Shown piece after piece: positions 6,981 through 19,418 of a stretch of 42,678 bases of DNA. Positions within the stretch are counted from its first letter, which is position 1, and each line of letters begins with the position of its first letter. The translations under genes and the position numbers were made by a program. The DNA comes from a virus: IMG/VR virus record IMGVR_UViG_3300017971_000442, positions 1-42,678 of that record, one strand, 5' to 3'. The notes beneath the pieces were generated by a model, which was given only the letters and a program-made list of their open reading frames with translations, made no database searches and had not been told where the DNA came from.

Positions 6981-7304
6981 CTAAACAAAGGAATTAACTG
7001 CTTCATCAGGTTTTGTACGTTTGTCAATAGTTTCGTTAAATTCTCTCTGACCATACGCATCAATAGCGCGGCTGATAAGACGTTCTGTATCACGTCCCCA
7101 AATCTTAAAGATCACACGGTTCACGTAATGATCGTACACCTCCACTAGGAAGGGTTCCTTCAACTTCTCGGATGCAAACAAATGGTCGGAATCTTTCAGC
7201 AACGCTGTGTAACGCTTCATCTTCTTGACTTTCTTCTGCGCGTTCTTCACTGGTGGCTGTGCCTTACTGACCTTCGCTTGCTTGAGCATCTGCTTTAAAC
7301 TCAT
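6981..7304 (-). CDS. Hypothetical basic protein
   Basis: A 107-residue protein with a very lysine-rich N-terminus (residues 4-31) and an alpha/beta C-terminal part. The basic region suggests nucleic-acid contact. ATG overlaps the upstream stop by 4 bp, so it is translated with the winged-helix gene. Function is unknown. Confidence 0.65.
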   Translation of the reverse strand: MSLKQMLKQAKVSKAQPPVKNAQKKVKKMKRYTALLKDSDHLFASEKLKEPFLVEVYDHYVNRVIFKIWGRDTERLISRAIDAYGQREFNETIDKRTKPDEAVNSFV

Positions 7305-7618
7305 CTCTTATGTATTCTCTGTATATTAAGACCTACTAAATTAACCTTATACACCCCTCTGGCTGTTCCAGTGGGACGTGTTATAAAACGATGTTCGTAA
7401 AGACGACTAATATATCTCTTTACTGTTATCGTACTGATACCTAAAGCCTGACTTATTGCTTCACGATTGGGTATATCATTATGCCATATATCACCATTCG
7501 CTTGCAATAGGATCATCTTTAAGACCTGTGCGGACTGAGGGCCGGCTCTTGTAGCAACCTCAAAAATATCGTACCGTCCTAGAGGCATTAGTCGGAGAGT
7601 AACTCGCTTGCTTTCCAT
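7301..7618 (-). CDS. Winged-helix DNA-binding protein, first gene of leftward block
   Basis: A 105-residue protein. Residues 51-90 form a winged helix-turn-helix: a short helix (NREAISQALG), a turn, the recognition helix (ISTITVKRYISRLYEHRFI) and a wing (RPTGTARGVYKVN). The fold is shared by phage regulators and replication initiators. It lies at the divergent control region with an iteron-like array about 80 bp upstream, so it may bind those repeats as regulator or initiator; that link is inference. A promoter-like sequence sits 25-40 bp upstream of the start. Confidence 0.75.
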   Translation of the reverse strand: MESKRVTLRLMPLGRYDIFEVATRAGPQSAQVLKMILLQANGDIWHNDIPNREAISQALGISTITVKRYISRLYEHRFITRPTGTARGVYKVNLVGLNIQRIHKR

Positions 7619-7640
7619 TTGCTATACTTAAACATACTGC

Positions 7641-7660
7641 AATATACAAAGGTCTTACTC
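7641..7660 (-). promoter_or_regulatory. Leftward promoter candidate (TTTGTATATT)
   Basis: On the minus strand GACCTTTGTATATTGCAG lies just upstream of the winged-helix gene. The TTGTATATT core also occurs upstream of genes at 27221 and 41721. No good -35 hexamer is visible 17 bp upstream (TAGGAA), so a phage or Bacteroidota-type sigma requirement is possible. Confidence 0.5.
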
Positions 7661-7698
7661 CATTTCCTAATTAGTAACGAAAATAATGTAGAAAATAT

Positions 7699-7813
7699 TT
7701 GGTTCAATATTTAGCTCCTAAAAATGGTTCAAGATGTTGGTCTTAGAGAGTACCGTCCTGTTGGTCTTTGGAGTACCAAGATATTGGTCTTTAGAAGGCA
7801 CAGGATGTTGAAC
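7699..7813. repeat. Iteron-like repeat array in the divergent control region
   Basis: GGTTCAA occurs at 7701 and 7726. TTGGTCTT occurs at 7737, 7761 and 7784, spaced 24 and 23 bp, within a longer half-conserved unit ending in GTACC for the first two. An inverted copy of the first motif, TTGAACC, follows at 7807. The roughly two-helical-turn spacing is that of sites bound on one face of DNA by an initiator or regulator. The array may be the replication origin or the operator of the adjacent winged-helix protein. Confidence 0.65.
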
Positions 7814-7834
7814 CAGGAATCGACCTTAACTTCT

Positions 7835-7858
7835 TCTCTGTCAGAGAGTTAACCCTCT
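7835..7858. promoter_or_regulatory. Two overlapping palindromes, candidate operator
   Basis: TCTCTG-T-CAGAGA (7835-7847) is a perfect odd palindrome. It overlaps AGAGAGTTAACCCTCT (7843-7858), a palindrome with one mismatched pair centred on GTTAAC. They lie just upstream of the proposed rightward promoter, where a repressor or activator could act. Confidence 0.45.
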
Positions 7859-7873
7859 ATCCCCCTATAAAAG

Positions 7874-7902
7874 TTACACATATAGAAATAATATTCCATA
7901 TT
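7874..7902 (+). promoter_or_regulatory. Rightward early promoter candidate
   Basis: TTACAC (7874-7879), 17 bp, then CATATT (7897-7902). Spacing matches the other promoter candidates here. Transcription would begin near 7909, right at the first helix of the structured region, before the rightward gene block. Confidence 0.4.
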
Positions 7903-7904
7903 AT

Positions 7905-8305
7905 ACTTATGAACCACGAAGTCGGATCAATTAGTATTCCCATCATGGGTAACTTTACTACCCGCTTACCTTCGTGGGTAACTGTATCACTAGGTGCTCC
8001 CCTGCTAGGTAGCCTATCGTCATGGCCCGATAGGGATGCTAAGTGTGTAATAGCAACGAGTTACCCTTACTATGATACAAGATACGGGTGATATTGCCCT
8101 TACTTTGTTACACGTGTCGTATAGGGTGGTCATAGAAAAGACGGTACCTCTATATATGCTGATAATAGACCCCCGGGTGGTATATATGCTGATTTTTCAT
8201 GGCCATAGAAATTTTGGTAGTGTTTTTACGGACGTGGGAACCACCTTAAAGAACCGACCCCTCCGAAAGGAAGAGGGTTCATACCCCCGTGGTCTTACTT
8301 TAACT
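7905..8305 (+). ncRNA. Structured RNA candidate A, about 400 nt
   Basis: This stretch has no convincing gene; two short frames (7909-8091 and 8072-8323) have unlikely composition. It is dense in complementary segments on the plus strand: CCACGAAG 7914 / CTTCGTGG 7970; inside it GGGTA 7947 / TACCC 7959; GGGTAACT 7976 / AGTTACCC 8059 enclosing the hairpins CCTATCG 8013 / CGATAGG 8028 and TGCTA 8037 / TAGCA 8051; CCCTTAC 8097 / GTATAGGG 8119; GTGG 8234 / CCAC 8241; and GAACC 8251 / GGTTC 8276 with an inner TCC-GAAA-GGA tetraloop hairpin. It lies between the promoter candidate and the first rightward gene. It could be a free RNA, a long regulatory leader, or origin DNA that folds when single-stranded. 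Confidence 0.55.
8151..8193. repeat. Two 13-bp direct repeats, 30 bp apart
   Basis: TATATATGCTGAT occurs at 8151-8163 and 8181-8193, exactly 30 bp from start to start, separated by AATAGACCCCCGGGTGG. They lie inside structured region A and could be protein-binding sites or melting elements of an origin. Confidence 0.55.
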
Positions 8306-8319
8306 AAAATAATTATCTT

Positions 8320-8619
8320 ATGAGCTTTTCAGAATTATTCAAAGGTTCAGCTAAAATGGCTGACGTAAAAGATCTTGAAATCGGCGATGCTGCTGATGGC
8401 ATATTGACTTCAGTATGGACGAACAGCGACGCGTCGCATTTCTTCGGGTCTGTCACCGTTGGTGACAAAAAAGTACGTGGTATCATAGGTTCTGTTGAAG
8501 ACTATGATGCTGAGACACTTGCCGATAAGATCGGTACAACAGTCGAAGCGGAGTATCGCGGCACGTACACGGATGATAATGATAACGAGCGTCCATCTTG
8601 GGCACTTCGTGGCATCTAA
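8320..8619 (+). CDS. Small acidic protein, first gene of rightward block
   Basis: A 99-residue acidic protein (many D and E) with a strand pattern resembling a small beta barrel: GDAADGILTSVW, ASHFFGSVTVGDKKVRGIIG, then TVEAEYRGTY. An OB-like fold is possible but not shown. The A/T-rich leader (AACTAAAATAATTATCTT) has no Shine-Dalgarno sequence, as is usual in Bacteroidota. A strong terminator follows four bases after the stop, so this gene and structured region A may form a single transcript. First position behind the control region suggests early and abundant expression. Confidence 0.75.
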   Translation: MSFSELFKGSAKMADVKDLEIGDAADGILTSVWTNSDASHFFGSVTVGDKKVRGIIGSVEDYDAETLADKIGTTVEAEYRGTYTDDNDNERPSWALRGI

Positions 8620-8622
8620 ACT

Positions 8623-8648
8623 AAGGGAGCTTCGCTCCCTTTTATTTA
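8623..8648 (+). terminator. Intrinsic terminator
   Basis: AAGGGAGC-TTC-GCTCCCTT followed by TTATTTAT. An 8-bp stem directly after the stop of the first rightward gene. Confidence 0.85.
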
Positions 8649-8649
8649 T

Positions 8650-8715
8650 ATGAGATTTAATGTCAATCGGTTGTCTGGCACACCACATACACTTACAACT
8701 TTTTTAATGAGGTGA
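8650..8715 (+). CDS. Possible 21-residue peptide
   Basis: ATG at 8650 to TGA at 8713, directly behind the terminator. Its leader would be the terminator tail, so expression would need read-through. Composition is unremarkable. Listed only because no other content is visible between the terminator and RNA B. Confidence 0.15.
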   Translation: MRFNVNRLSGTPHTLTTFLMR

Positions 8716-8757
8716 ACAGTCAAACGATTGTACTTTAGGTATACTTACTATAAATAT

Positions 8758-8820
8758 ATGTACTACAATCCAGATGGTACTATTAATGTTACTGGTGATC
8801 GCAGTTGGGACGCTAAGTAA
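8758..8820 (+). CDS. Possible 20-residue leader peptide
   Basis: ATG 8758 to TAA 8818, encoding a polar peptide beginning MYYNPDGTINVTGD. It occupies the 5' arm and loop of the main hairpin of RNA B. If translated, ribosomes would open the hairpin, giving an attenuator-like arrangement before the terminator at 8871. Evidence for translation is only the open frame and an A/T-rich leader. Confidence 0.25.
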   Translation: MYYNPDGTINVTGDRSWDAK

Positions 8821-8870
8821 CTAATAGTACTTGATATAGATGTGACACATCTAACGATGCACATCGACTC

Positions 8871-8905
8871 AAGCAGGTGAAGTATAGTAACCTGCTTGTT
8901 TTACT
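8871..8905 (+). terminator. Intrinsic terminator of RNA B
   Basis: AAGCAGGT, 11-nt loop, ACCTGCTT, then GTTTTACTTTG. It separates RNA B from the membrane protein gene that starts at 8931 and makes the GTG at 8877 an unlikely start for that gene. Confidence 0.8.
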
Positions 8906-8930
8906 TTGTATCTCACTAACTAACATACAT

Positions 8931-9311
8931 ATGATACATGAAAAATGGTTTGCTATAATCGCAGCAGCTGCTTTTATAGCTCTTGTTACAATCCTTGGTA
9001 CTCAATGTGAAAGCAGGAGTGGCAAGCTTTCTAAAGCTCAAGCAATGGAGGGTGTTACACACCGAGCTGAATTTGGTGTCAGTGATTATACATTGCATCT
9101 TGATGATACTATTATTGGTCATGAGAACATACTTGGTATGTCTCAAAATGAAGAGATGATAGTATTGATCAAGCAAGAAGACAGTGTCGAGTACACATGT
9201 ACTTTATTTGATGATGAGTTTACTGCTGTTTATCACATACCACGTCATGGTAATCCTGTGCTTGCAGCGTGTATTGCTCATGTTCCTGTTGAGTGGCATA
9301 AGACAGAGTAA
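8931..9311 (+). CDS. Small membrane-anchored or secreted protein
   Basis: A 126-residue protein starting at ATG 8931; an upstream GTG at 8877 lies in the terminator hairpin. Residues 5-23 are hydrophobic (WFAIIAAAAFIALVTILG) and are followed by T-Q-C, so it may be a signal anchor or lipoprotein signal (L-G-T-Q-C is a poor lipobox). The remaining roughly 100 residues look like a periplasmic beta-rich domain (YTLHLDDTIIGHENILGM, VEYTCTLFDDEFTAVYH). Function is unknown. The leader CTCACTAACTAACATACAT resembles that before 9925. Confidence 0.65.
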   Translation: MIHEKWFAIIAAAAFIALVTILGTQCESRSGKLSKAQAMEGVTHRAEFGVSDYTLHLDDTIIGHENILGMSQNEEMIVLIKQEDSVEYTCTLFDDEFTAVYHIPRHGNPVLAACIAHVPVEWHKTE

Positions 9312-9330
9312 CTTTAATAACCACAACCTA

Positions 9331-9444
9331 ATGTTACTCTTCTTTATTGCCTACAGCTTGCTAGGCTTGCTGTGGATGAGTGCATCTGTTCTTGATGCAC
9401 CTTATGGAATTGAAACTCCAAATGGTTTAATCATAATCAAATGA
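9331..9444 (+). CDS. Small membrane peptide (37 residues)
   Basis: ATG 9331 to the stop at 9442, encoding one hydrophobic segment (residues 1-18) and a short polar tail ending PNGLIIIK. It follows the previous gene by 19 bp. A longer frame from 9184 would overlap that gene almost fully and is rejected. Likely inner-membrane, single pass. Confidence 0.45.
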   Translation: MLLFFIAYSLLGLLWMSASVLDAPYGIETPNGLIIIK

Positions 9445-9448
9445 AAAC

Positions 9449-9565
9449 ATGGAAACTCTAAAGAAAGTGCGTGTTGGTAAGGAGTTACGCAAGAAGCAGA
9501 TTGAAATAATCCTAGTCATTTCTACGATGCTCGGATTATTTAGCCTTGCGGTAGCTCAACTATAA
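9449..9565 (+). CDS. Small membrane peptide (38 residues)
   Basis: ATG 9449 to TAA 9563. A basic N-terminus (VRVGKELRKKQ, residues 7-17) precedes one hydrophobic segment (IEIILVISTMLGLFSLAVAQ, residues 18-37). The basic side should stay cytoplasmic. It starts four bases after the previous stop. Together with the two genes before it, this forms a run of small membrane proteins. Its 3' end may contain a promoter for RNA C (TTGCGG 9546, TATGAT 9570). Confidence 0.5.
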   Translation: METLKKVRVGKELRKKQIEIILVISTMLGLFSLAVAQL

Positions 9566-9579
9566 ATTATATGATGAAA

Positions 9580-9897
9580 ATGATCAGCGATACTTTAACT
9601 AGTATCGCTGGTTTCACCGTCGAATGATCACCTCAACGTGGTGACGGTGTCTAGTAGCCCATTACGCGGTGAAGCTAACGATCATAAGGGAAAAGGATGT
9701 CTATCAGTTAGTGATAATTCCGTACTAAAAGCACTAACGATACTAGCCTTACCGCTAGACAGGATCTAGTGAGTAGACTAATAACTATGCAAGCGTATAC
9801 GCTGTTAGTCATAGTAAGTCGCTGTTTGATCAGCAGAGATGTAAGCAAGGTGACACATGGTCGGACATGATGTGAGACATCCTTTCCCTTTTACTTT
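9580..9897 (+). ncRNA. Structured RNA candidate C, about 320 nt
   Basis: A gene-free 360-bp gap with strong base pairing on the plus strand. A perfect 9-bp hairpin, CAGCGATAC 9585 / GTATCGCTG 9602, is followed by CACCG 9615 / CGGTG 9645 enclosing TCACC 9628 / GGTGA 9640. Then AAGGGAAAAGGATGTCT (9686-9702) pairs with AGACATCCTTTCCCTT (9875-9890), 16 pairs with one bulged A, enclosing 172 nt. Inside are GTTAGTG 9707 / CACTAAC 9732, CTAGC 9743 / GCTAG 9754, GACTAA 9776 / TTAGTC 9805 with AGCG-TATA-CGCT within, GCTG 9821 / CAGC 9831, and CACAT 9854 / ATGTG 9870. TTTACTTTG follows the closing helix, as at a terminator. It does not match a group I intron, tRNA or tmRNA that I can recognise. Confidence 0.65.
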
Positions 9898-9924
9898 GAA
9901 ACTTTCACTAACATACAATATACT

Positions 9925-10119
9925 ATGAAAGAGTTCAGACTATATACTAGAGACGATGGTGCTACGTGTCACATTAAGTATGCTGATCAATTGGCACCTA
10001 GTGTAATTTACAAATGTACTGCTCCTGCTACTCATGTCATTGGTAAGGGCAGACTACGTTGTAAAGAGCACTTCGAGAAATGGTTGAAAAAACAATCACG
10101 TAAACATAATACACTATGA
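9925..10119 (+). CDS. Small zinc-binding protein
   Basis: A 64-residue basic protein with C31-x5-H37-x8-C46-x2-H49 (KCTAPATHVIGKGRLRCKEH), a pattern seen in small phage proteins that contain a C-x-x-P-A-T-H element and probably bind zinc. The C-terminus is lysine-rich. The start follows the leader CACTAACATACAATATACT after RNA C. The stop overlaps the next ATG by 4 bp. It may bind nucleic acid or a host protein; neither is shown. Confidence 0.65.
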   Translation: MKEFRLYTRDDGATCHIKYADQLAPSVIYKCTAPATHVIGKGRLRCKEHFEKWLKKQSRKHNTL

Positions 10120-10427
10120 GTAGATTTCATATTCAATTAGACGAACATAGATCAATGTCTTATGGTTATGATCGTCCACTTCAAGGATACTTCATTCAGA
10201 TATATGATGAACGATATGCTTGGAAAGAAGAGAATACACCAGAAGAAAATGAGGCAGCGGAAGCTGTTGATTGGACTGGTGAAGGTGAGGTAGAGAGTTA
10301 TGCTACTAATAATATGCTTCTTGCAAAGAAGGTTGTTAGTCGTAGCAGGATACTTGAGATACTTGAGGAGAATGGTGTTCCAGAAGATCACCTACATCAA
10401 GTGGCTCTTGATCTACCAATCGTATAA
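10116..10427 (+). CDS. Hypothetical acidic protein
   Basis: A 103-residue acidic protein with a strand-rich N-terminus (YGYDRPLQGYFIQIYDER) and a helical end (RSRILEILEENGVPEDHLHQVALDLP). It overlaps the zinc protein gene by 4 bp, so both are made together. No family was recognised. Confidence 0.65.
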   Translation: MSRFHIQLDEHRSMSYGYDRPLQGYFIQIYDERYAWKEENTPEENEAAEAVDWTGEGEVESYATNNMLLAKKVVSRSRILEILEENGVPEDHLHQVALDLPIV

Positions 10428-10433
10428 GAAAAC

Positions 10434-10504
10434 AGGAGTGATGTGCCTGCTGGCAGTACCGCAATTATTTCCATAATGCCTGATGGCCAGTCGCCTTCAC
10501 TCCT
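10434..10504 (+). ncRNA. Structured RNA candidate D, about 70 nt rod
   Basis: AGGAGTGA 10434-10441 pairs with TCACTCCT 10497-10504 (8 bp). Inside, CTGGC 10450 pairs with GCCAG 10486, and at the tip GCAATTAT 10461 pairs with ATAATGC 10473 around a TTCC loop, with one bulged A. The order gives a single bent rod. No T-run follows, so it is not a terminator. The next gene starts 31 nt downstream, so this may be a 5'-UTR element controlling it. Confidence 0.5.
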
Positions 10505-10535
10505 TAACAAAGAAACTAACTTAAACAAATATACT

Positions 10536-10784
10536 ATGGGAACATTTAAAGAAATGCTACTTCAACATCCAGATGTTGAATATGTCACAATACCATCTAA
10601 AACAGATGCGGACTTCCAGAAGGTGCTGAACCAATGGAAGCATGATTATTACTTTGTCCTCCTTGATCACCATTGGTATCGAGGTAAAGATGATAAGCTG
10701 TTTCATGGAGCACTCGTTGCTCGTGTTTCTAGAGAGATTGCTTATAGTTTAATTGATCTTGAACATAGATTACTTAATTCTTAA
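10536..10784 (+). CDS. Hypothetical protein
   Basis: An 82-residue protein from ATG 10536. The upstream start of the frame at 10443 lies in structured element D and is rejected. The leader AACTTAAACAAATATACT matches others in this region. It shows an alternating helix-strand pattern (FKEMLLQHPDVEYVTIP, YYFVLLDHHWYR) and no known motif. Confidence 0.6.
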   Translation: MGTFKEMLLQHPDVEYVTIPSKTDADFQKVLNQWKHDYYFVLLDHHWYRGKDDKLFHGALVARVSREIAYSLIDLEHRLLNS

Positions 10785-10788
10785 CGTC

Positions 10789-11064
10789 ATGGAAGATTAT
10801 TATGAAGATTATTATGAAGAAGATCTGGACGAGTGTCATGCTCCCCCTTTAGATGATCCTGATGATCCTTATCATGCTGAAAATAAAGCTCATTTTCAAG
10901 AGCTTGATTTTATTGATGGTAAGCGGAATGTTTATGATCGTGAGTATGATCTTGTACGCGATCCGAAACATACGAATGATGGTATCCAATTTGATCACAA
11001 CTTGCTGATTATTATTGGTATTATAATTTTGGGCATACTGATTGGTATGGCCGGTAATGTCTAA
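10789..11064 (+). CDS. Acidic tail-anchored membrane protein
   Basis: A 91-residue protein; ATG at 10789 follows the previous stop by four bases. The first 65 residues are very acidic and tyrosine-rich with a repeated YYED-like start. The last 22 residues are hydrophobic (LLIIIGIIILGILIGMAG), so the protein is probably anchored by its C-terminus with the acidic part in the cytoplasm. No family was recognised. Confidence 0.6.
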   Translation: MEDYYEDYYEEDLDECHAPPLDDPDDPYHAENKAHFQELDFIDGKRNVYDREYDLVRDPKHTNDGIQFDHNLLIIIGIIILGILIGMAGNV

Positions 11065-11081
11065 CTAAAACAAATAAACTA

Positions 11082-11414
11082 ATGAAACGATTCCTGATTG
11101 CTTTAAGCATCCTGTCTATCTTATTGATAGCAGGATGCCTCAATTACACCTTTGGTCAACAAACTCGCTTTGGTAAAAGCGGTACAATTGGTCGTGGTGT
11201 TTACTCATGTCCTACTTACACTGGTCACGATCCATTCTTTGCAAAGAAAGTAAAGATACGTGGTTCAAAGAGTGTAAGAGAGATAAGAAAGATTGAGCGT
11301 AAACGAGACAAGTCACCTTACTGGTACAAGACTCGTGCTCAAATGATTGCTGAAAAGATATTGCCCTGGAATTGGGGTGATCGAAACCGCAGAAGAAATG
11401 TATGCAGAAGGTGA
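11082..11414 (+). CDS. Lipoprotein with basic mature domain
   Basis: A 110-residue protein with a classic lipoprotein signal: basic start, hydrophobic core and lipobox L-I-A-G-C at C19. The mature part is strongly basic (KKVKIRGSKSVREIRKIERKR), unusual for an exported protein, with three more cysteines. It is probably attached to the periplasmic face of a membrane. Possible roles include exclusion of other phages, as for some prophage lipoproteins, but this is a guess from location and type only. Confidence 0.65.
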   Translation: MKRFLIALSILSILLIAGCLNYTFGQQTRFGKSGTIGRGVYSCPTYTGHDPFFAKKVKIRGSKSVREIRKIERKRDKSPYWYKTRAQMIAEKILPWNWGDRNRRRNVCRR

Positions 11415-11631
11415 TGAAAGTGGATGGAAGAAGTGGACAGGTCATCTACGACCTTGTCCACTTGTTTTTTGTCTCAGACTTAAACGTGGCTGGAGAGTAC
11501 ATTTTAAACAACAAGATGACTTAGCTTATGCTGATTATTATAATCAGCGTGGAGAGTTAATCTTGTTAGTTCACTTAAAGATGAACTTAATTAAAGTTGA
11601 TCAACAATTTACCGATTTTATACTTAACTAA
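11401..11631 (+). CDS. Uncertain small protein spanning a terminator hairpin
   Basis: A 76-residue frame from ATG 11401 that overlaps the lipoprotein gene by 14 bp. Its residues 11-21 are encoded by a very strong hairpin followed by six T (11431-11470), so the message would usually end inside the gene. The part after the hairpin (DDLAYADYYNQRGELILLVHLK) has the composition of a real protein, but has no ATG of its own before residue 60. Either a non-ATG start is used, the terminator is read through, or the gene is decaying. Confidence 0.35.
   Translation, partial: YAEGDESGWKKWTGHLRPCPLVFCLRLKRGWRVHFKQQDDLAYADYYNQRGELILLVHLKMNLIKVDQQFTDFILN
11431..11470 (+). terminator. Strong intrinsic terminator
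   Basis: AAGTGGACA-GGTC, loop ATCTAC, GACC-T-TGTCCACTT, then GTTTTTTG: 13 pairs with one bulge. It follows the lipoprotein gene by 17 bp and should close that operon. Confidence 0.85.
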
Positions 11632-11638
11632 TGAAACA

Positions 11639-12001
11639 ATGAACAAGATTCAATTGATTGTACTAAGTGTACTCACGGTAGGCTTTGGGCTTACCTTGTA
11701 CGGTGTTGTAGTCGATAGCAGTGTATTCACGCTGTCAGGTGCTACAGTAATGTTCGGAACCATGCTATGGTTCTTGCTGACAATGATAGGCGGTGAGGAT
11801 AAGTCACAGTTTGTAACTCAATACCATCTTCTATCAGTGTTGGAACAGCTTGCTGAAACAGATAAGCTGATAATAGATCGAGTAGATGCTCATCATAAGG
11901 TTCTTGAGCTTCATACAAAGGCTCTTGAGGTGCTTGGTGACAAAGTATTTCCTGTCAAATCTAAAGATTTTACTGATGCACTTCGTAGGTCACAAAATTA
12001 G
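11639..12001 (+). CDS. Membrane protein with coiled C-terminus
   Basis: A 120-residue protein from ATG 11639. Two hydrophobic segments (about 4-24 and 30-49) are followed by a soluble helical tail (SVLEQLAETDKLIIDRVDAHH, then LELHTKALEVLGDKV). The layout is that of an inner-membrane hairpin with a cytoplasmic coiled domain. Its end overlaps the next gene by 26 bp. Family unknown. Confidence 0.65.
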   Translation: MNKIQLIVLSVLTVGFGLTLYGVVVDSSVFTLSGATVMFGTMLWFLLTMIGGEDKSQFVTQYHLLSVLEQLAETDKLIIDRVDAHHKVLELHTKALEVLGDKVFPVKSKDFTDALRRSQN

Positions 12002-12869
12002 TCTGATTGTATTGGCACTAGTTGTGCTGATTATGCCAGCTTGTCTAACAGACAAAGAAGAAGTTGAAGTATATGTAGGTGAAGGATACTATCGTGCCAT
12101 TAATATTGATTTTGATGGTGCTACTAGTTATTCACCTATCGCATACATACAACCGATTAGTACGTATAACCTACGTAATGCGCGTGTTGCTGGAGATTCT
12201 GTTCTAGAACTAGTTGACAAAATAGTAACTGATTGTTTCACTCTTGAAACACACAGATGCTATGATGGACCAATTGGTGCTACAACACTTAACGCTCTTG
12301 GTGGTAAGTTTGGATTTAACTTAATCTGGAATGATGATTGTGATGTTACTGATATTACAGTAATCAAGAATGAATTATCTTCCAAGCGATATCCTAATCC
12401 GTTCTCTACCTATGAGTTTAATGTAGGCACATTCTGGACAGAAGGATCAGTCTTCGATAAAGATGATATTTATACATCTCCTTATCGAGAACCTGATACA
12501 GGTATAATCTGGATACCAGAGCTGTACGATCCAAGCGAACCAACATACAACTGGAAGTTTTGGCTTTCAATCAATGGTAAAACTTACAAGCTTGAGACGC
12601 AAATACGTTTCGATAATAATACTCTTATTCCAGAGGATGCGAAATGTACAGCATTTGCGTTGCCTGTTACTTGGATATCTGTTGATGTAACACGTAGTGG
12701 TTATTGTAATTTGTTCACATTTACTGTTGCAGAGCAGATTGATGTGAACTATTATGAGATTCAGTTTTCAACTGATGCTGTTGAGTGGGAGACTGTCGGA
12801 ATGGTAGCTCCTCTTGATTTTGATAAAGGAACTTATACTTATGACTTTGAACATTGTAACAATGAGTGA
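11976..12869 (+). CDS. Surface lipoprotein with Bacteroidota-type C-terminal domain
   Basis: A 297-residue protein from ATG 11976. A hydrophobic signal ends in M-P-A-C (C23), a weak but usable lipobox. K-E-E at residues 27-29, just after the cysteine, resembles the K-(D/E)2 lipoprotein export signal that sends Flavobacteriia lipoproteins to the cell surface. Residues 40-225 are beta-rich and contain several paired cysteines. The last 70 residues (LPVTWISVDV near 230, then VNYYEIQFSTDAVEWETVG) closely resemble the fibronectin-like domain that precedes sorting tails in Bacteroidota secreted proteins; no sorting tail follows. It may have been acquired from a host and may alter the surface of infected cells. 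Confidence 0.7.
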   Translation: MHFVGHKISLIVLALVVLIMPACLTDKEEVEVYVGEGYYRAINIDFDGATSYSPIAYIQPISTYNLRNARVAGDSVLELVDKIVTDCFTLETHRCYDGPIGATTLNALGGKFGFNLIWNDDCDVTDITVIKNELSSKRYPNPFSTYEFNVGTFWTEGSVFDKDDIYTSPYREPDTGIIWIPELYDPSEPTYNWKFWLSINGKTYKLETQIRFDNNTLIPEDAKCTAFALPVTWISVDVTRSGYCNLFTFTVAEQIDVNYYEIQFSTDAVEWETVGMVAPLDFDKGTYTYDFEHCNNE

Positions 12870-13467
12870 AAAGAAAAATGAATTAGCAACAAAACATGTT
12901 ACTGTAATTGGTGGTACTCTCATTAACCTACGAGATGCGGATACTTTTGGTGAAGCAATCGGCGATCTTTTTGTAGAGTTTGCTGATGCACCTGCATTTG
13001 ATGCATGGTCACTAGATGTACATGAGCAAATCGTGGAAGGTAATTCACCTCATGATGGTAGAATCTCTGATCTACTATTAGAAGGTTTAAATATTGCCAT
13101 GAAAGAGGGTGTTACTGAAGTGACTCCTCAATTCGTTGTTCATATAAGCCTGGCTATTGGTAGAATGTTACAGTCTGCTGCTAGTAGGCGACACGAACGC
13201 ATGGAAGAACTCATGAACGAAAGCATGGGAGAACTCAATGACAAGATGAAAGACTTAATGGAACATCTACATTTGGGTGAAACTACTCCGGAAGAGTGCC
13301 ATGATTGTGAACATTATGATGAGTGTACCAGCCCTTTAAAGGCTGATAAGAGCGAGATAGCGGAGTACAAGGGACAGATGGAAGTGGACGATGATCTTGC
13401 TACTCTGATTAAGGAAGTGCAGGATGAGATTAAGAAAGAGTTGAATGGTGATGATGAGGAGCCTTAA
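12862..13467 (+). CDS. Acidic helical protein with a cysteine/histidine site
   Basis: A 201-residue protein; ATG 12862 overlaps the preceding TGA. It is strongly acidic. Residues 110-155 form a long helix (RRHERMEELMNESMGELNDK), followed by ECHDCEHYDEC, a compact C/H cluster that could bind zinc, then an acidic helical tail. No family was recognised. A GNRA-capped terminator follows. Confidence 0.65.
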   Translation: MSEKKNELATKHVTVIGGTLINLRDADTFGEAIGDLFVEFADAPAFDAWSLDVHEQIVEGNSPHDGRISDLLLEGLNIAMKEGVTEVTPQFVVHISLAIGRMLQSAASRRHERMEELMNESMGELNDKMKDLMEHLHLGETTPEECHDCEHYDECTSPLKADKSEIAEYKGQMEVDDDLATLIKEVQDEIKKELNGDDEEP

Positions 13468-17004: not shown

Positions 17005-17016
17005 TAGAAAAAGGGT

Positions 17017-17053
17017 AGGGGTTATGATACTGTTATAACCCCTGCTCTTATTT
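17017..17053. terminator. Bidirectional terminator between convergent genes
   Basis: AGGGGTTAT (17017-17025) pairs with ATAACCCCT (17035-17043). Rightward it is followed by GCTCTTATTTTC, leftward by ACCCTTTTTC. It lies between the rightward gene ending at 17004 and the leftward gene ending at 17022, which it partly overlaps. Confidence 0.75.
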
Positions 17054-17231: not shown

Positions 17232-19418
17232 ATGATTGTTTTCATAAGCAAGAAAAACTATGAAAAAGTTTCATTCGCTAATCATGGTATTGAAGTAGCA
17301 AGCACACTTGATCCCCTAATCAAATTCTTACAGGGTCAACGAGAAGTAGGCTTCGATACCGAGGCTAGTAGCCTTGATGCTTATGAGGCCAGTCCGTTGC
17401 TCTGTCAGTTCGGAAACACGGATATTCAGTACGTTTTAGACGCCACATCGTACGATCTCAAAGAGATTGAACCCTACCTATCAGGTACGATCCTGATAGG
17501 CCACAACCTAAAGTATGATTATAAGATACTAAAGGTACAGGGGGTAACATTTAGAAACATGTACGATACTATGATCGCGGAAGAGATCATAACCAATGGC
17601 AGTGGACTTCGAGTTGGTCTTGATGCAGTTGTTCAAAGACGACTTGATCTACCTCCACTTGCTAAAGATGTTCGGGAGACTTTTGCAGGTCACCCACCAG
17701 AGAAATTATTTTCACCGAAGCAAATCTTATACGCAGCCGAAGATACTCAGCATTTGATTCCCTTAAAAGAGAAACAGATGATTTTCATTGAGAAATATGG
17801 CTACCACAGAGATTTGTATGAAATAGAGTTCCCACTAATACCGATTATTGGTGATGCTGAACTTGAAGGTTTTAAAATTGATGAAGATGAGTGGAGGAAA
17901 CTCATTAAGGAGAACCAAGATCTTGCTGACAAGCAGGTAGGTATTATGACACAGTATCTTATTGATCTCCAGGGTACATATCCTGGTCTCAAAAGATTAC
18001 GTCTTAATCCAGATGCTAAAACACAGCGCATGGAGCAGCTCAACATGTTTGGCGATCCTATGTTAATCACCTCGAAGAATAAGTCAGTAATGAACTTCAA
18101 TAGTGGTGATCAACTTCGTAGTGTATTTGAGGCTACTGGTAACCCTATTCCTACAATCAAGAAGAAAGACCCCAAGCTCGGTAAGAAGGTGACAAAGGTA
18201 TCTTTTGGTGAGGATGCTCTTATTCAATGGCAAATTTCAAATCCTAACAGTAAGCTATATGAATTTATTGATGAACTCATTAAGTATAAGAAAGCTCTCA
18301 AAGCTGTTAGTAGCTTCGGGGAACGGTTCCTCTATTCGACATTACGGAGGAAGGGTGCGAAGGCTCAAAGGGGATATAAGAGTCCGTATACTGGAAAAGT
18401 ACATACTATTTATCGCCAGTGTGGTACGGATACCACTCGTATGGCAAGTGGTGATGCTGACAACGGATACTATAACTCTCAGAACATACCTAAAGACAAA
18501 AGAGTTAGGCAAGCTTTTATTGCTGATCCTGGTTATGTCATCTCTACGTGTGACCTTAGTGGAGCAGAACTCCGAATCGCCGCTAGTTTATCTGGTGATA
18601 AAAGGCTCATTGAGCTTATGCGTGGTGACGATTTACATTCACCTATTGCTACCTTTTGTTATAATAGGGTGCTGGATTATATTGTAACGAATATGAACGA
18701 GACGAGAGCGGAGAAGGAGATCTATGACCTCCTCAAAGCAGATCCTCGTTTACTCAATATTACAGAGGTTGAGGCTAATGCAATATCTCATGAACGACTT
18801 GCTTATTATCTTGATAACAAGGAGTTTCAAATTACTGACAAGACTGCTTATGACATTCGTACTAAGTATAAGAACGTAAACTTTGGTCTTATATACGGTG
18901 CTAGTGCTGAGCGAATCATGGAGATATTGGGCGTTGCTAAAGCTTTTGCTACAATCATTGAGCAGGGGATGCGAGAGTATCTTCCGGACTTGTTTCGATT
19001 CCTAGACATGAATAGCCAGATGGGTGTTCAGAATGGATATGTACGTTTCAATACGATTAATGGTGGAAGACACTGGTTTAAAGAAGCATTGGATCATTTC
19101 AATGCTGGTACTGACATTCCTTTTAATATCAAAGGTGATATTGAAAGAGCGTGTAAGAATTATCCTATTCAAGGTACTCAAGGTCACATGATCAAGGAAG
19201 CAACTGTAAGGTATTTCTACGATTATGTGTATCCTAACAATTATGATGTTCGCATGAAGTTGCAGGTGCATGATGAATTGGTTATTATGCACAGGCTAGA
19301 AGAGCTTGAACATGGTGAGGTGTTAAAAGAGTACATGAATAAGTATGCTAACAAATATCTAAGTCATGGATTAACTATGGACGCGTCATTACAGACGTTA
19401 CCTTATTGGACTAAATAA
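17232..19418 (+). CDS. polA: Family A DNA polymerase with 3'-5' exonuclease
   Basis: A 728-residue replicative polymerase. The N-terminal exonuclease has FDTEASSLD (D42, E44), GHNLKYDYKIL (90-100, D96) and YAAEDTQ (D171). The polymerase domain has T-D-T-T-R (399-403), motif A CDLSGAELRI (D441), motif B with KYKNVNFGLIYG (F551, Y555) and motif C QVHDEL (H680, D681, E682). There is no 5'-nuclease domain, as usual in phages. The distance from motif A to motif B is about 114 residues, roughly 50 more than in E. coli Pol I, because of an insert near 477-540. It heads a long operon of replication genes; ligase and helicases follow. Confidence 0.97.
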   Translation: MIVFISKKNYEKVSFANHGIEVASTLDPLIKFLQGQREVGFDTEASSLDAYEASPLLCQFGNTDIQYVLDATSYDLKEIEPYLSGTILIGHNLKYDYKILKVQGVTFRNMYDTMIAEEIITNGSGLRVGLDAVVQRRLDLPPLAKDVRETFAGHPPEKLFSPKQILYAAEDTQHLIPLKEKQMIFIEKYGYHRDLYEIEFPLIPIIGDAELEGFKIDEDEWRKLIKENQDLADKQVGIMTQYLIDLQGTYPGLKRLRLNPDAKTQRMEQLNMFGDPMLITSKNKSVMNFNSGDQLRSVFEATGNPIPTIKKKDPKLGKKVTKVSFGEDALIQWQISNPNSKLYEFIDELIKYKKALKAVSSFGERFLYSTLRRKGAKAQRGYKSPYTGKVHTIYRQCGTDTTRMASGDADNGYYNSQNIPKDKRVRQAFIADPGYVISTCDLSGAELRIAASLSGDKRLIELMRGDDLHSPIATFCYNRVLDYIVTNMNETRAEKEIYDLLKADPRLLNITEVEANAISHERLAYYLDNKEFQITDKTAYDIRTKYKNVNFGLIYGASAERIMEILGVAKAFATIIEQGMREYLPDLFRFLDMNSQMGVQNGYVRFNTINGGRHWFKEALDHFNAGTDIPFNIKGDIERACKNYPIQGTQGHMIKEATVRYFYDYVYPNNYDVRMKLQVHDELVIMHRLEELEHGEVLKEYMNKYANKYLSHGLTMDASLQTLPYWTK

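Follow-up and report, generated by a model that had tools for sequence, protein, structure and literature searches.

In phage T7, RNase III processing hairpins and terminators are located between the early genes. The crAss-like phage crAss001 has an early module that behaves as an operon and is switched on within 10 minutes; its counterpart in phi14:2, a similar operon, is transcribed by the virion polymerase (PMC8375218). Here, we analysed four gene-poor stretches of the early region of an IMG/VR virus record of 42,678 bp (IMGVR_UViG_3300017971_000442, hereafter the window) and compared them with these systems. The window is part of a crAss-like phage genome. The nearest annotated relatives of its DNA polymerase I (17232-19418) are crAss-like phages of the family Steigviridae, with about 25% identity, and the leftward block contains an open reading frame (ORF) of 5331 amino acids (aa) between ORFs of 1231-1489 aa, at the place that the giant virion RNA polymerase occupies in crAss-like phages. 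Two further records are about 100% identical to the window over the region, and with them the phage reaches a length of at least 93.7 kb.

The four stretches, at 7905-8305, 8758-8905, 9580-9897 and 10434-10504, were found where an earlier reading of the letters (the sequence-only reading) had placed them, and small genes begin, as it had also noticed, 15, 25, 27 and 31 nt past them, at 8320, 8931, 9925 and 10536. The non-coding share is 34% in the early block (7619-13000) compared to 0.6% in the structural block, and stretches 2-4 hold no typical coding sequence. We favour, with moderate confidence, the explanation that the stretches belong to one polycistronic early transcript, as RNA segments between its genes that act mostly in cis. 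The features of the region are as follows.

7619-7905, unstranded: divergent intergenic region between the leftward winged helix-turn-helix (wHTH) gene (7301-7618, - strand) and the rightward early block
7905-8310, + strand: stretch 1, gene-poor and not significantly structured, possibly with two atypical small ORFs
8320-8619, + strand: small early gene, 99 aa, with a gene-like codon score and without known family
8623-8641, + strand: intrinsic terminator after the 99-aa gene, a stem of 8 bp and then a T-run
8758-8820, + strand: possible leader ORF of 20 aa (MYYNPDGTINVTGDRSWDAK) opening stretch 2, from translation only
8774-8908, + strand: stretch 2, a 16-bp hairpin (8776-8831), a second hairpin and a terminator-like hairpin (8870-8898) with TTTTACTTTG, from hairpin energies and folding
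8931-9311, + strand: small early gene, 126 aa, from its codon score; no family found
9571-9627, + strand: possible leader ORF of 18 aa (MMKMISDTLTSIAGFTVE) opening stretch 3, from translation only
9580-9685, + strand: stretch 3, 5' domain, a predicted three-way junction with an ATGATC/GATCAT closing helix, a 9-bp hairpin (9587-9609) and a long hairpin (9610-9675)
9686-9891, + strand: stretch 3, 3' domain, multibranched, with a long closing helix formed by an inverted repeat (AAGGGAAAAGGATGTCT / AGACATCCTTTCCCTT) and followed by TTTTACTTTG
9898-9924, + strand: leader of the gene that follows, without a Shine-Dalgarno site (GAAACTTTCACTAACATACAATATACT), from the sequence
9925-10119, + strand: small early gene, 64 aa, from the ORF list and codon score
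10116-10427, + strand: small early gene, 103 aa, from the ORF list and codon score
10434-10505, + strand: stretch 4, a single long interrupted intercistronic hairpin of -27.6 kcal/mol, no T-run
10536-10784, + strand: small early gene, 82 aa, from the ORF list and codon score

The folding of the transcribed (+) strand was compared with that of exact dinucleotide shuffles, with 16-200 shuffles per test, so that the z values carry shuffle noise. Stretches 2, 3 and 4 folded better than their shuffles, with a z of -3.16 for 8740-8910 (1 of 200 shuffles as good), -5.88 for 9566-9900 (0 of 100) and -4.27 for 10425-10512 (0 of 200), respectively. Compared with random length-matched windows of the phage, whose mean z was -0.4 to -0.9, they ranked 6/150, 0/70 and 1/200. 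The structure claimed for all four stretches thus held for these three, but not for stretch 1 (7905-8310), for which z was -1.36 and 12 of 100 shuffles folded equally well. This stretch is tiled end to end by two overlapping ORFs, 7909-8091 (60 aa) and 8072-8323 (83 aa), the second overlapping the start of the next gene as ATGA; their codon scores of -0.06 and -0.05 are borderline between those of genes (mostly >0.055) and of spurious ORFs (mostly < -0.057). Helices of at least 8 bp were no more numerous in stretches 1-3 than in shuffles, which does not bear out their description as full of complementary segments: the arrangement of the helices is unusual, their number is not. The covariance-model search by which the sequence-only reading had proposed to check the elements (Rfam 15) gave no match in the window at the gathering threshold, the best sub-threshold matches scoring at most 24.4 bits, and readings as a group I intron, a group II intron or a riboswitch were dropped for lack of Rfam support.

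Long structured gaps are also common in the relatives of the phage. No close phage record was found by blastn, and IMG/VR scans with the polymerase, two early proteins, the major capsid protein and the terminase returned only identical copies or relatives too remote to be of use for the early region, the closest of which, L142 (14.2 kb, capsid identity 69%), ends before the early block. In the collections searched, no diverged copy of any stretch was found, and only the ~100% identical records share them. In 65 related contigs, the 136 co-directional gaps of at least 180 nt had a mean z of -2.4 against -1.55 in matched coding windows; 35% of the gaps reached z <= -3 (18% of the coding windows) and 9% reached z <= -5. 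At least three relatives of the same gene order likewise have a gene-sparse early block behind a divergent gap: G004 (polymerase identity 30%; gaps of 782, 297, 360, 198 and 688 nt, some with z of -3.4, -3.3, -4.1 and -4.6), G055 (polymerase 36-38%, capsid 52%; gaps of up to 1145 nt, z mostly not significant, with one of -7.1) and G058 (several early-block gaps, z to -5.1). The genes of these relatives were called by a simple codon-usage script, which may have missed atypical small genes within some of the gaps. As in crAss001, these blocks and that of the window start from a divergent gap, hold small orphan genes and long gaps, and precede the replication genes, DNA polymerase I among them. 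The gap sequences are dissimilar, no likeness being found between those of the window phage and of its relatives, and crAss001 carries there a TROVE gene and tRNA-like elements, whereas the window phage has neither. The gene-sparse early layout is a lineage trait, and structure in the gaps is common but variable. Since long gaps often fold well and the block recurs in relatives, the serial set is typical of the lineage and is no unique system. It had been put forward as the best candidate for an undescribed system, a view that finds no support, given that related gaps often fold as well and that the block recurs, its sequence not conserved, in three or more relatives.

According to the explanation we favour, the early transcript would run rightward out of the divergent gap 7619-7905, and each element would act between two genes. 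In stretch 2, the terminator-like hairpin 8870-8898 would cause partial termination (attenuation) ahead of the 126-aa gene. It has a 9-bp stem, an 11-nt loop and a TTTTACTTT T-run, and its long loop kept it off the terminator scan list. The sequence-only reading had seen two terminator-like hairpins followed by T-rich sequence; a compact hairpin does precede the T-run at 8870-8898, but the T-run of stretch 3 has none, follows an arm that pairs about 170 nt upstream and is likewise missing from the scan list. The long interrupted hairpin of stretch 4 (10434-10505), whose modelled stem size would suit an RNase III processing site, may be cut by host RNase III or other nucleases, or may protect the mRNA between genes. 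The two-domain fold of stretch 3 (9580-9685 and 9686-9891) would probably do the same job, or be excised as a stable by-product RNA, and the sequence past each element would be the gene's own Shine-Dalgarno-free leader. Such an arrangement resembles that of T7, where stable hairpins also follow one another between the small early genes of a single polycistronic transcript, with the differences that the structures of the window are unlike each other, that one exceeds 300 nt and that processing is here only presumed.

This explanation is supported by the folding of stretches 2-4 beyond shuffles and most random windows, by the terminator-like hairpin at 8870-8898 and the terminator at 8623-8641, by the layout common to G004, G055 and G058 and the frequent structure of related co-directional gaps, and by the precedents of the crAss001 early operon and of virion-polymerase transcription in phi14:2, together with the 5331-aa ORF in the matching place. 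Two signals described below, the lack of a promoter found for the genes after stretches 2-4 and a leader at 11061-11084 that occurs without an element, also agree with it. Several points weigh on the other side. The position of the stretches, the lack of typical coding sequence in stretches 2-4 and their folding are observed, whereas transcription, termination and processing are deduced; no diverged homologue of any stretch, in which covariation would show, was found in the collections searched; the size and stability of stretch 3 exceed what termination or processing would call for; and its T-run follows a long-range helix and not a compact terminator hairpin. If the favoured explanation is true, the stretches are the ordinary RNA by which an early phage operon is controlled and processed, and the gain is a comparative one: an early block sparse in genes, whose long gaps are structured to varying degrees, recurs in this crAss-like lineage.

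Another role for stretches 2 and 3, as attenuator leaders in which a ligand, or the translation of a short 5' ORF (20 aa at 8758, 18 aa at 9571), sets readthrough versus termination, appears improbable. Short ORFs with TATATG-type starts do open both stretches, the end of stretch 2 is terminator-like, and alternative helices within 9580-9685 are mutually exclusive. However, these ORFs are below the length at which codon statistics apply, ATG triplets are common, the helix counts reveal no clear antiterminator beyond chance, and no known riboswitch of Rfam matched.

The sequences that follow the elements were considered for promoter and leader signals. On both strands of the 93.7 kb, TTTTACTTTG has just two copies, at 8899 and 9889, each directly behind a structured stretch and ahead of CACTAAC..ATACA; the sharing of CACTAAC...ATACA after the T-rich motif, noticed from the letters, is real in both leaders. 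The motif TTACTTTG occurs 8 times on both strands of the same 93.7 kb, 3 of them within these stretches. A pattern scan for TTTTACTTTG..CACTAACnnACA returned the same phage only, plus one unrelated coding match. The T-rich part of the shared sequence is in keeping with a terminator tail, and the remainder with a leader that lacks a Shine-Dalgarno site. A similar leader precedes the gene at 10536, and a leader CTAAC..AAACAAATA.ACTA(A)TG is also found at 11061-11084, before 11082, where no RNA element stands. The observation that the gene starts lack Shine-Dalgarno sites was accurate, a Shine-Dalgarno-like site being present at 4 of the 96 gene starts of the phage; it is no mark of special control, because the lack is general in the phage and such starts are normal in Bacteroidota (PMC9723704).

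These same motifs could be taken for an early promoter element made of hairpin and TTTTACTTTG, used by a virion polymerase, as are the hairpin promoters of N4, or by host sigma-A through a -7 box TAnnTTTG, in which case the stretches would matter as DNA upstream of start sites. The confinement of TTTTACTTTG to two positions at a similar distance ahead of two gene leaders is in line with it, as are the presence of TTACTTTG after the small hairpin 8086-8099, the single base by which TTACTTTG differs from TAnnTTTG (PMC9723704) and the four copies of TTACTTCAA clustered in the crAss001 early gap. However, the host-type promoter TTG-N17-21-TAnnTTTG, with TTG at -33 and TAnnTTTG at -7, had no such pair in the early gaps, the -33 element being missing; the motif is absent at comparable positions of G004, G055 and G058 and does not stand ahead of most early genes, and the T-run after a terminator accounts for most of it. 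We hold this promoter role for decidedly improbable. As no host-type promoter was found in the early gaps, the genes after stretches 2-4 are without a recognisable promoter of their own.

Of the four stretches, only stretch 3 (9571-9898) makes a fair candidate for a free RNA. It could be a stable early non-coding RNA (about 9571-9898) with a trans-acting role in functions of the host or the phage, with stretches 2 and 4 perhaps as smaller companions, a possibility that we regard as unlikely. In this respect, its 3' domain alone (9684-9893) gave a z of -5.25, with 0 of 200 shuffles as good, and no shuffle equalled the whole stretch either; a long helix joins the 5' and 3' ends of this domain, and no coding signal was detected in the stretch. 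The crAss001 early operon, with its 905-nt gap, interrupted tRNA and TROVE gene, shows that RNA genes occur in such regions. Against this stand the lack of a promoter in the early gaps, of a matching Rfam family, of a TROVE protein in the phage and of a homologue in phages, or in IMG/VR beyond identical copies, and the ~9% of gaps in related contigs that fold equally well. Less likely still is the wider proposal that stretch 3, perhaps with stretches 2 and 4, comprises free early RNAs and that the early block is a cluster of fast-evolving, host-acting RNA genes made by an injected virion polymerase. Should stretch 3 turn out to be a free RNA, an RNA effector of early infection would be added to an abundant group of phages whose early genes are almost all of unknown function.

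A TROVE/Y-RNA reading, prompted by crAss001, was rejected for the window phage. Y RNA/Ro60 (TROVE) particles share with it a structured RNA in an early operon and differ in that no TROVE gene was found in the 93.7 kb, the three records of the phage giving no match to PF05731 at E up to 10. In crAss001 itself (MH675552, 95965-96869) and in L108 (22966-23870), a gene-free gap of 905 nt comes right after the TROVE (Ro60-like) early gene; in it lie a tRNA with an interruption of about 70 nt and all four copies of TTACTTCAA that the genome has on the minus strand, contents that are possible Y-RNA-like partners of the TROVE protein.

Within the 5' domain of stretch 3, 9615-9685 can form a hepatitis delta virus (HDV)-like pseudoknot, an alternative to the predicted three-way junction, and was therefore compared with the theta ribozymes of Bacteroidota phages (PMC10879173). 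Like these, it shows the nested double pseudoknot, with P1 of 7 bp (CACCGTC/GACGGTG), P3 (ACC/GGT), P2 (ATGATC/GATCAT) in register though not scored by the model, and a catalytic C in J4/2 (GCTAAC). The match to Rfam RF02682 at 9615-9685 scored 17.5 bits. In a strict scan this topology occurred once in 187 kb, at 9615, and with CNAA in J4/2 twice in 959 one-strand shuffles, a rarity that is an upper bound on significance, the pattern having been composed after the candidate was seen. Self-cleavage of the early transcript at 9614/9615 by such a ribozyme is nevertheless scarcely credible. Base 1 (9615) is C and not G, whereas a genuine example in the related contig L120 starts with G, its first pair being G-U. 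P1.1 is impossible, L3 (TCAACGT) and the TC after P1' giving no two pairs (TCCACGC and GGG in L120). The score lies below the family threshold of 44 bits and at noise level, scores of 18.3 and 17.0 being found in 2 of 49 related records against 28.9 for the genuine example, and the competing hairpin is more stable than the pseudoknot. Unlike theta ribozymes, the segment also adjoins no tRNA or transfer-messenger RNA (tmRNA), neither of which was found in the window. Membership of 9615-9685 in the HDV ribozyme family was rejected on G1, P1.1 and score.

The genuine example is found in the crAss-like relative L120 (IMGVR_UViG_3300031994_000081, 1501-1907, - strand), where it directly adjoins the 3' end of a tmRNA (tag DNTIQFVPDYSRAEVRLAA). 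It is an HDV-like ribozyme of the theta type with P1 GGAGCAC/GTGCTCT, P2 TAAACT/AGTTTA, G1 present and P1.1 possible. In the main text of PMC10879173, theta ribozymes are tRNA-associated and tmRNA is not mentioned, and the tmRNA-linked ribozyme of L120 may be an unreported use. Further tmRNA genes were seen in the crAss-like relatives L029 (16101-16421) and L141 (3457-3793).

The small early genes gave few matches. The 99-aa protein (8320-8619) had no Pfam match and only sub-threshold PHROG matches, with no homologue in phages or in bacterial or archaeal genomes, and the early proteins had no tblastn match in phages. In the divergent gap, three TTGGTCTT repeats with a spacing of about 23 nt (at 7737, 7761 and 7784; 7737-7791) lie beside the wHTH gene (7301-7618, - strand) and are possible operators of that regulator, whose helix-turn-helix matches are weak. 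Elsewhere in the window, a very strong long hairpin at 17010-17053 (GGGTAGGGGTTATGATACTGTTATAACCCCTGCTC), directly before a short convergent ORF, gave the strongest short-window folding signal. In the relatives, long near-perfect hairpins followed by T-runs in intergenic gaps, at 4912-5211 of L087 (z -14) and 7390-7617 of L091 (z -11), are probably terminators.

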